Below, one piece after another: positions 9,448-12,185 of a stretch of 61,151 bases of DNA. The notes under the pieces were generated by a model, which had not been told where the DNA came from, did not search any database, and saw nothing but the letters and a program-made list of their open reading frames with translations. The DNA is from Thermoanaerobaculia bacterium (lineage in GTDB: Bacteria > Acidobacteriota > Thermoanaerobaculia > Multivoradales > JAIOJS01), in NCBI GenBank assembly GCA_030429235.1, contig JAUIDB010000026.1, positions 1 to 61,151 on the forward strand, written 5' to 3'. The translations under genes were made by a program, and so were the position numbers. The stretch's first letter is position 1. The number at the start of each line of letters is the position of its first letter.

Positions 9448-9954
9448 ATGAACGACCCACGGCTCTTGTTGTTGATGCGCCACGCCGAGTTTGCCGACGC
9501 CGCAGTCTGGAAGGCGATCCTTCGCTCGGGGGCTGCGTCCGACGATCGAGTCCTCGACCTGATGCACCACATCCACGCCGTACAGCGGGCCTTCCACGCC
9601 GTTTGGACCGACGGCGAGGTCGACTTCGGCGAACGAGCTACGGTCGGAGACACCGAGGCGCTGGTGGGCTGGGGTCGAGAGGGCCATCGTCAGCTGCAGA
9701 GGTACGTCGAAAGCGCCGACGAGGAAGAGCTCGTTCGGCAGCCGACCATTCCCTGGGCTCACTACTTCGAACGCCGGTTCGGACGGCCGATGGAGCCGGT
9801 TTCGGTAGGCGATATGATCCAACAGGTCGCCATGCACAGTATCCACCACCGGGGACAGGTCACCTCGCGGCTCCGCGAACTCGAAGCCGAACCGCCACTG
9901 GTCGACTGGATCGCCTGGCTCTGGTTGGATCGTCCGATTGCCGACTGGGAGTAG
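9448..9954 (+). CDS. DinB family protein
   Basis: A 168-residue four-helix-bundle protein of the DinB/YfiT superfamily. The metal-ligand histidines are visible in LMHHIHAVQRAFH (around residue 45) and in QQVAMHSIHHRGQV (around 130), the C-terminal HSxHHRGQ signature of this family. Members are metal-dependent thiol transferases (bacillithiol or mycothiol) or uncharacterised stress proteins; the substrate cannot be told. The gene starts 62 nt from the divergent ubiE gene and is followed 25 nt later by the TTL-like gene in the same direction. Confidence 0.85.
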   Translation: MNDPRLLLLMRHAEFADAAVWKAILRSGAASDDRVLDLMHHIHAVQRAFHAVWTDGEVDFGERATVGDTEALVGWGREGHRQLQRYVESADEEELVRQPTIPWAHYFERRFGRPMEPVSVGDMIQQVAMHSIHHRGQVTSRLRELEAEPPLVDWIAWLWLDRPIADWE

Positions 9955-9979: not shown

Positions 9980-11818
9980 GTGGCGAAGCTCTATCGCGCC
10001 GACCAGGAACTTCGGAGTGGTGAAGTGGCGGCGTGGGATCCGCACCTCCGGTCCGCGGGTTGGCAGCGGACCGAGGGAGACGCCTGGCACCTCTTCCTGG
10101 CTCGGGGCCGCCCGGATGATGACCTGTACCGCCGCCGCCAAGGCGGACAATGGGTCAATCGTTTCGCCGGGATGGCGTCCTACGCGGTCAAGAGCCTGTT
10201 GGTTCGCAACCTACGGTCGGCCCGGCACGCGATCGAGAGCCGAGAGGGCGAGAGTCGCTTCCGAGAATTCCATCCCGAGACCTTTCTCCTACCTCGAGAA
10301 GCGCAGGCCTGGCAGCGACGAGCCGCCGCGGCGCCCGAACTCTGCTGGCTCCTGAAGCCGCAGGCCTCCTCTCGAGGTCGCGGCATTCGGTTCGTCGAGG
10401 CCGGCGAAGAGCTCCCCACCGATGGAGACTGGCTGGTCCAACGAGCGGTCGATCCCCATCTCATGGATGGCTACAAGTACGGACTGCGGTACTACGTGTT
10501 GCTGGCCTCCCTCGATCCCCTGGTGGCCTACGTGCACCGCCGGGGTACCTGTCGGGTCGCGACGCGCCCGTTTGCCCTCGATGCTGCGGGTCGCTCCGAT
10601 CGATTGGCCCATCTCATCAACACGGCCGTGCAGCAAACCAATCCGGAGGCGACCTGGTGGCAGCGCAATCTCGATTTCGCCGGCTACTACCGCTGGTTCG
10701 AAGGGCAGGGATTCGACCCGCTTCGGCTCGAATCACAAATCGACGAGGCCCTGCGCCGTACGCTACTCGCTTGCCGTGAGCAGGCTCTGATCGAGAGCCG
10801 GGCCGTGGGGACTCTGGAGGGCTGTTTCGAGTTTCTGGGGGTGGACTTCCAGGTAGACGACCGTGGGTCTCCGTGGCTCCTCGAGTGCAACCCGGCCCCG
10901 CCGATGGAGGACGAGGGTGGCTTCGACCCGCGCACGGGCGCACTCTTCGGGGGGATCAAGAACGAGCTGATGTCCGATCTACTGCGGTTGCTCGGTCTCG
11001 AAGGCAGCCTCGAGGAACAAGCCGCCGAGCGTCGACTCACCTGGCCACAACGACTGCAGGCCCAACGGGACCGAGCCGGCGGTTGGCGGCTGCTGTGGCC
11101 GGTGGCGGAGAGCGCCACATATCGGGAGCGTCTCCTCCTCCGTCCGACGGACGAGGAACTGCAGGCAGAGGTCGGCGTACGCCGAAGAAGGTCTGCGCCG
11201 CCTGCTCCTTCCTCTCGAGTGGCGGCCTGGCCTCTGGGCCAGGGACTCGTCTTGCACGACGACTCGACGGGGCGACTGTTCACCACCAATGCCGCGGCTG
11301 CGTTCGTCTGGTCTGGACTGGCCGAAGGGGCGAGCCTCGACGAACTGGTGGCCGAACTCGAGGGGGCGAACCCGAGCGGTCGCGAGACCACCGGCCCCGA
11401 GATCGGCTGGCGCGACCGGGTCTGGGATCTACTGGTGGTCTGGTCCCACCTCGGACTGCTAGCGGGCACCGAATACTGCCGGAGCGAAGAGCGTTCTACC
11501 GGGTCCCTGCAGGTAGCGGGCCGGAGGCTCGCCGCGGCGCTCGCCCTGCCCGTCAGCGCGGCGGTCGCCGAGGGGTGGTCGACGACCGTCGAGCTCCCCG
11601 ACCCGCGAATCCGAAGCCTGCTTTTCACTGGAGAAGACCCTGGACCTGGTGCGCAGCCCGAGGGCGGGACGCTGTGGACGAAGAGTGCGGCACTGGACAC
11701 GCTCGGCGAACTCCATTCTGGCGGCCTGCGTTTGGACAGGCCGTTGGCCCGGCGGCTGGTGGCCTGGTTGAGCCAGTGCGAAGTCGTGGTTTCGGACCGA
11801 CGGCCCGGTGCACTATGA
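9980..11818 (+). CDS. tubulin-tyrosine-ligase-like ATP-grasp ligase fused to a PqqD-like domain
   Basis: This protein of about 612 residues has two recognisable parts. Residues about 45-335 match the TTL family: VNRFAGMASYAVKSLLVRNL, FHPETFLLP, the ATP-grasp block WLLKPQASSRGRGIR (K126), DGYKYGLRYYVLLA, HLINTAVQ and PWLLECNPAP (E302, N304). TTL enzymes ligate an amino acid to a protein carboxylate. Residues about 412-490 look like PqqD, the fold used as RiPP recognition element: GLVLHDDSTGRLFTTN, AAAAFVWSGLAEGASLDELV, VWSHLGLL. The last 110 residues are unassigned. GTG at 9980 is preferred over TTG at 9938 because a GAGG lies upstream and the latter overlaps the DinB gene. The Tat-protein gene follows after 7 nt. 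Confidence 0.8.
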   Translation: MAKLYRADQELRSGEVAAWDPHLRSAGWQRTEGDAWHLFLARGRPDDDLYRRRQGGQWVNRFAGMASYAVKSLLVRNLRSARHAIESREGESRFREFHPETFLLPREAQAWQRRAAAAPELCWLLKPQASSRGRGIRFVEAGEELPTDGDWLVQRAVDPHLMDGYKYGLRYYVLLASLDPLVAYVHRRGTCRVATRPFALDAAGRSDRLAHLINTAVQQTNPEATWWQRNLDFAGYYRWFEGQGFDPLRLESQIDEALRRTLLACREQALIESRAVGTLEGCFEFLGVDFQVDDRGSPWLLECNPAPPMEDEGGFDPRTGALFGGIKNELMSDLLRLLGLEGSLEEQAAERRLTWPQRLQAQRDRAGGWRLLWPVAESATYRERLLLRPTDEELQAEVGVRRRRSAPPAPSSRVAAWPLGQGLVLHDDSTGRLFTTNAAAAFVWSGLAEGASLDELVAELEGANPSGRETTGPEIGWRDRVWDLLVVWSHLGLLAGTEYCRSEERSTGSLQVAGRRLAAALALPVSAAVAEGWSTTVELPDPRIRSLLFTGEDPGPGAQPEGGTLWTKSAALDTLGELHSGGLRLDRPLARRLVAWLSQCEVVVSDRRPGAL

Positions 11819-11825
11819 TCGATCG
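11814..11825 (+). promoter_or_regulatory. -10 box TATGAT 6 nt before the Tat-protein ATG
   Basis: TATGAT at 11814-11819 matches five of six consensus bases and overlaps the TTL stop codon. TTCGGA 17 bp upstream is a weak -35. A start about 7 nt downstream of the box coincides with the ATG at 11826, so the small gene may have its own leaderless promoter in addition to read-through from the ligase gene. Confidence 0.4.
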
Positions 11826-12185
11826 ATGAGCAAAGAGAAGCTGCCGCCGCTGTCCCCCGAGACCCTCGCTCGTCCGAGTCGGCGGTCCTTCCTGAAACTG
11901 GTCGGAACGGCGGCCGTGGCCGGCCCTGTGTTCCTGTCCGTCGGCGCTCGGGCCGGCGAAGAGACTCCTTACGAACGCGCCCAGTACTATCTCGGCAACG
12001 CACGAGACCTGGTGGCCAGGGCTCGCGACGCAGAGGGACAGGCCCAGCGGCAGCTGGCTACCGAGGCCCACACCGAGCTGACCGAAGCTCGCAGCGCGAT
12101 CGCCGACGGCACGCCGGAGGAGCGCGAGCGGATGGCTCGCCCGATGCTTCGCCTCGAGAAGGAAATCGACGATCTTCTCGACTAA
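11826..12185 (+). CDS. small Tat-exported helical protein, unknown function
   Basis: I do not recognise the family. The 119-residue product has a textbook twin-arginine signal, SRRSFLKL (residues 18-25), a hydrophobic stretch and an AxA cleavage site (ARA|G, after 43). The mature part of about 76 residues is highly charged, rich in Ala, Glu and Arg, likely two helices (YERAQYYLGNARDLVARARD and a second from about 80), and ends in the acidic tail LEKEIDDLLD. Tat export suggests folding or cofactor loading in the cytoplasm, or transport with a partner. It lies 7 nt after the TTL-PqqD gene and could be its substrate, but nothing in the sequence proves that. Confidence 0.8.
   Translation: MSKEKLPPLSPETLARPSRRSFLKLVGTAAVAGPVFLSVGARAGEETPYERAQYYLGNARDLVARARDAEGQAQRQLATEAHTELTEARSAIADGTPEERERMARPMLRLEKEIDDLLD

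Follow-up and report, generated by a model that had tools for sequence, protein, structure and literature searches.

A tubulin-tyrosine ligase-like enzyme fused to a PqqD domain is paired with exported proteins that appear to carry a leader within their signal peptides

The stretch of DNA that we analysed, referred to here as the window (61,151 nucleotides), raises the question of what a tubulin-tyrosine ligase (TTL) homologue does in a bacterium without microtubules, since the relatives of this enzyme add amino acids to tubulin. To our knowledge, TTL enzymes have been studied almost solely as writers of the tubulin code. The gene in question is a 612-amino-acid open reading frame with a GTG start (positions 9980 to 11818, forward strand; orthologues known), which encodes an ATP-grasp ligase of the TTL type joined in one chain with a PqqD domain, and its stop codon is separated by 7 nucleotides from the ATG of a 119-amino-acid exported partner (positions 11826 to 12185, forward strand). 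An earlier note, made from the letters of the window, had described both the fusion and a small neighbor with a twin-arginine (Tat) signal. The open reading frames are as described there, the fusion is matched by both domain profiles, and the signal of the partner exceeds the cut-off of the Tat model TIGR01409.

The ligase domain (residues 56 to 316; positions 10145 to 10927, forward strand) was delimited by Pfam, nearest structures and alignment. It matches the Pfam TTL model (PF03133) with an E value of 1.3e-40 and 139.9 bits versus a cut-off of 20.1, and the same profile is above its curated cut-off in all six fusions as well as in a truncated TTL protein from genome G458. No NCBIfam graspetide model matched the fusion, and TTL alone fits strongly. 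In the alignment of the six fusion orthologues, which come from two phyla, the ATP-grasp catalytic residues K126, R170, D289, E302 and N304 show no variation; the fusions have Gly, Val or Thr in place of the conserved Asp of the TTLL motif KFDLR. The solved structures nearest to this domain are the glutamylases TTLL7 and TTLL6, with TTL proper much weaker. Glutamate is most likely the donor amino acid, favored yet unproven because the PDB may under-represent glycylases. At the other end of the protein, residues 500 to 612 (positions 11477 to 11815, forward strand; delimited by alignment only) align with the two ends of a C-terminal domain that is longer in the fusions from Pseudomonadota, and are possibly a reduced form of that domain, a reading that we regard as suggestive only.

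Between these regions lies the probable leader reader, a PqqD/RRE domain (residues 405 to 497; positions 11192 to 11470, forward strand) supported by Pfam, hhalign and predicted secondary structure. In the protein scan, residues 424 to 461 match Pfam PqqD (PF05402) with an E value of 2e-4 and 22.1 bits, slightly below the cut-off of 23.4 bits, and in the genome scan the window protein scores 25.6 bits against the same cut-off. The model matches all six fusions and exceeds its cut-off in two, matching over its full length in the orthologues of G060 (28.9 bits) and G046 (24.2 bits), with scores of only 16 to 19 bits in the Pseudomonadota fusions, below the cut-off. When aligned by hhalign with PqqD proteins from its own genome, the fused domain reached 85.8%, versus at most 1.1% for 100 column-shuffled controls, and the NCBIfam model that fits it best is the lasso PqqD. 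The full-length AlphaFold2 model of the fusion (two sequences) has a mean pLDDT of 38.9 and is unusable, so that the PqqD fold is not demonstrable from it. Residues 414 to 490 of this low-confidence model show a predicted strand-strand-strand-helix-helix-helix order, which fits an RRE. Because the structure model is unusable, the assignment as PqqD, which is probably correct, rests on the profiles and hhalign. The source genome encodes other PqqD proteins: one at the edge of contig C48 (L029, 1 to 396) continues into a Tat-like stretch, SRRQLFKILVLVG, cut by the contig end and adjoined by sulfotransferase-like open reading frames, and two more (L017 and L018) lie beside HPr-kinase-like and radical-SAM-like open reading frames.

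The mature part of the partner (residues 48 to 118; positions 11967 to 12179, forward strand) is predicted by AlphaFold2 as a confident three-helix bundle (pLDDT 97 to 98 over this block), for which a fold search returned generic helical bundles only and no specific relative. Its family was found only beside the fusion. Among the 149 genomes of the class, we found two further full-length fusions (G060 and G046) and one TTL gene cut by a contig end (G458), and in G060 and G046 a member of the same small protein family directly follows the fusion. By its own terms, the earlier note would have been refuted if homologous fusions never had a conserved small neighbor, and a profile search shows that they do have one: the family occurs in 3 of 148 class genomes, exactly those with the fusion and always directly downstream. 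If both genes had spread independently, the chance of identical three-genome sets would be 1 in 529,396, a figure to be read with the fact that related genomes are not fully independent. Because the orthologues retain both genes and their order, the fusion and the small Tat protein are not a chance pairing and constitute a conserved but rare cassette. Of 77 near relatives, 74 lacked TTL, and among 396 genomes spread over the phylum it occurred only in the window genome itself (absent from 395). The fusion is also absent from the other searched genome of the same genus (G001), which suggests that it was gained by transfer or has often been lost.

The genes flanking the cassette in the window are housekeeping genes (CoaE, FolD, UbiE and DinB upstream, MetH and DUF1579 downstream), its base composition is not unusual, and the other copies of the fusion sit among different genes. 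Searches of plasmids with either of two queries gave no relatives, and none were found on viral contigs. Two records of an uncultured 735-kb phage (LR756501.1 and LR756503.1, 662312 to 662938) contain a weak TTL-like stretch with 23% identity to the G639 protein, comprising TTL only. Three weak loci among the genome contigs (L011 to L013) proved to be other ATP-grasp proteins and not TTL. Genes of the DinB superfamily lie near TTL in four loci (window, 9448 to 9954; L048, 6295 to 6861; L057, 10271 to 10855; L058, 10072 to 10683). The three genes from Pseudomonadota are mutually homologous, and DinB was dropped as a shared TTL partner since the window gene is not a close homologue of them. For the stand-alone TTLs of G982, G970, G898 and G1010, no PqqD was found in the retrieved loci. 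In G982 (L059, 7744 to 8859, and L052, 2539 to 3357), the gene after such a PqqD-less TTL encodes a protein with a signal peptide, RRKALK...WTRPLVESVVLPAHA, again with a WxxP motif.

What the partners have in common lies in their N termini. Aligned on one proline, eight partners display the block [RK]-x-x-[FL]-x(10-11)-[YFV]-x-x-P-[LMV] within the signal peptide, which in the window partner corresponds to RRSFLKLVGTAAVAGPVFLSV (residues 19 to 39; positions 11880 to 11942, forward strand; motif comparison). The W/Y/LxxP motif is bound by the RREs of PqqD, FusE and McjB (PMC12710340). The eight partners represent only four independent groups, and we therefore scored the block with one member per group, drawing controls from 93 signal-like N termini: the four-way scores were 239, 210 and 172, versus a maximum of 165 in 3,000 control quadruples. 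The simple pattern [YFV]xxPx[LMFI] or [YFV]xxP[LMV] occurs in 8 of 8 partners versus 4 of the 93 control signal peptides; this motif was picked after the partners had been seen, and the ranking with each group left out is the fairer test. In that ranking, six of the eight partners (G046, G458, G639a, G639b, G945 and G1052) came first of 4,305 open reading frames, that of G060 third and the window partner 33rd. The window leader is the weakest and least typical of the eight: VxxPVF replaces YxxP, and one residue is missing relative to the other partners. A secreted domain family seen elsewhere (L035 to L038; FHLMQIEQ-IGG) has a conserved FGD(G/D)FE.G near its C terminus, perhaps a sorting tag.

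In G458, a different Tat protein of 273 amino acids lies 6 nucleotides upstream of the TTL gene, which the contig end cuts before any PqqD part. Relatives of its cargo domain (G059, G008, G060 and G017) have ordinary Sec-type signals without the block, so that the leader of the G458 partner looks like an added part. The longer Pseudomonadota fusions (G639, G945 and G1052; about 810 to 840 amino acids, TTL E values of about 1e-55, weak PqqD) adjoin small exported proteins whose (EAEG)n tails are rich in Glu and Gly. Synonymous codons for Glu, Ala and Gly are mixed within these repeats, a pattern that speaks for selection at the protein level and not for recent DNA expansion. A second partner in G639, a SoxA/TsdA-type cytochrome (L048, 5598 to 6242), has the leader block and the same repeat, as (GEAE)n between signal peptide and haem domain. 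RRxF is found in the four partners on the Acidobacteriota side and is absent from those of Pseudomonadota, which have KR, RK or RQ in place of the twin arginine. The Tat signal to which the earlier note had drawn attention is therefore present in the window partner but is not the conserved feature; that role probably belongs to an RRE leader that overlaps with the signal peptide. The location of this common element within the signal peptide, together with the replaced Asp of KFDLR, would also suit an export chaperone, in which PqqD would grip the signal peptide as Tat proofreading chaperones do, with a TTL domain that is catalytically dead or a mere clamp. We consider this distinctly improbable, since both phyla keep K126, R170, D289, E302 and N304 without exception and partners without a twin arginine have the element too.

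The physical interaction of fusion and neighbor is putative, and the cargo domains differ between the partner groups, which would suit a ligase that targets a metabolite or some other protein, the neighbor merely using the modified product or being linked by chance. The strict co-occurrence and adjacency of the two genes and the common leader of unrelated cargos make this unlikely. Glu repeats are lacking in the three-helix cargo of Acidobacteriota, of which one member is non-acidic, with a net charge of +1. The acidic C terminus that the earlier note had remarked on is real in the window and recurs in G060 (DIEELLAD), but the G046 partner ends in KLNHYF, and we rejected it as a conserved substrate site. 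These two acidic termini and the repeat tails of Pseudomonadota could fit a scaffold pathway resembling that of PEARLs, in which a short peptide is built on the partner C terminus and later cut off as a small secreted product, the exported protein not being the product; TTLL11 can indeed initiate chains at a C-terminal carboxyl (PMC11574253). Such a pathway seems quite unlikely, given that neither a conserved protease nor another tailoring gene lies among the housekeeping or unrelated flanks of the Acidobacteriota loci and that the cargo is confidently predicted to be a folded bundle.

Taken together, the fusion and its partner are a real, conserved enzyme-substrate-like pair, with the address of the substrate apparently written in the signal peptide. 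The sequences themselves show the fusion, its conserved pairing, the leader common to the partners, ATP-grasp residues that are intact and, in Pseudomonadota, cargo with Glu/Gly repeats; we infer the binding of the leader, the catalysis, the amino acid and its site, whether modification or export comes first, and the biological role. We think it probable, without being confident, that this is a leader-guided protein-ligase system, in which PqqD binds the partner leader and TTL ligates amino acids onto the partner before export. The exported partner would carry the recognition leader in its signal peptide, and the PqqD domain would bind it in the cytoplasm as PqqD and lasso-type RREs bind YxxP-type leaders. 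Using ATP, the TTL domain would then attach free amino acids, with glutamate the most likely, to carboxylates of the unexported partner, either Glu side chains or the C terminus. The modified protein would be exported by Tat in Acidobacteriota and through non-twin-arginine signals in Pseudomonadota, with the leader removed by signal peptidase. Modification before export, as proposed in the earlier note, thus stands as logic, with the partner itself as the presumed recipient. In a more specific form, held tentatively and with somewhat more doubt than belief, the system would be a bacterial polyglutamylation of exported proteins resembling that of RPGR by TTLL5: an RRE-docked TTL would decorate any cargo, from Glu/Gly tails to folded domains, and one N-terminal tag would program both modification and export.

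The TTL-PqqD pair may thus be an unrecognised bacterial route for adding amino acids to proteins before export. A bacterial TTL whose substrate is linked to it genetically and apparently carries a leader would reveal the activity of the TTL family in the absence of tubulin, would bring a new enzyme class into leader-guided modification and would offer a simple two-gene model for the glutamylation of Glu/Gly repeats. With a leader in the signal peptide, the order of modification and export in secreted modified proteins, a question of long standing, also becomes directly testable.

Our literature search found no paper combining PqqD with a tubulin-tyrosine ligase, and the system is best placed by comparison with its separate relatives. 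With respect to RiPPs, a leader is evident by comparison, modification of the cargo is putative, and the cargo can be a folded domain (AlphaFold2). With PqqD and the lasso B1-type RREs (PF05402), it shares the profile match and the YxxP-type motif of the partner; unlike them, the domain is fused to TTL, the leader overlaps a signal peptide, and neither a lasso cyclase nor a B2 protease was found among the nearest flanking genes of the window locus. The MNIO/DUF2063 enzymes acting with DUF2282 proteins (bufferins) likewise combine an RRE-like domain with a signal-peptide precursor, but they belong to another enzyme class with other chemistry, and no specific motif was found in their leaders (PMC12710340), whereas the TTL-PqqD partners have one in common. 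Graspetides offer an analogy, as an ATP-grasp ligase modifies a gene-encoded peptide in them; here, the ligase is of the TTL family and the expected product is added amino acids instead of internal rings. The TTL/TTLL glutamylases (TTLL6, TTLL7 and TTLL5) have the same TTL domain with its ATP-grasp residues. TTLL5 docks on a separate domain and then glutamylates the Glu-Gly repeats of RPGR (RPGR-ORF15; PMC9897430); the Pseudomonadota cargos resemble these repeats, and the predicted docking in the fusion would likewise use a part outside the catalytic core. In contrast to the eukaryotic TTLLs, the fusion is bacterial, its docking part is a PqqD/RRE domain, the Asp of KFDLR is replaced, and its putative substrate is exported, with the docking site within the signal peptide.
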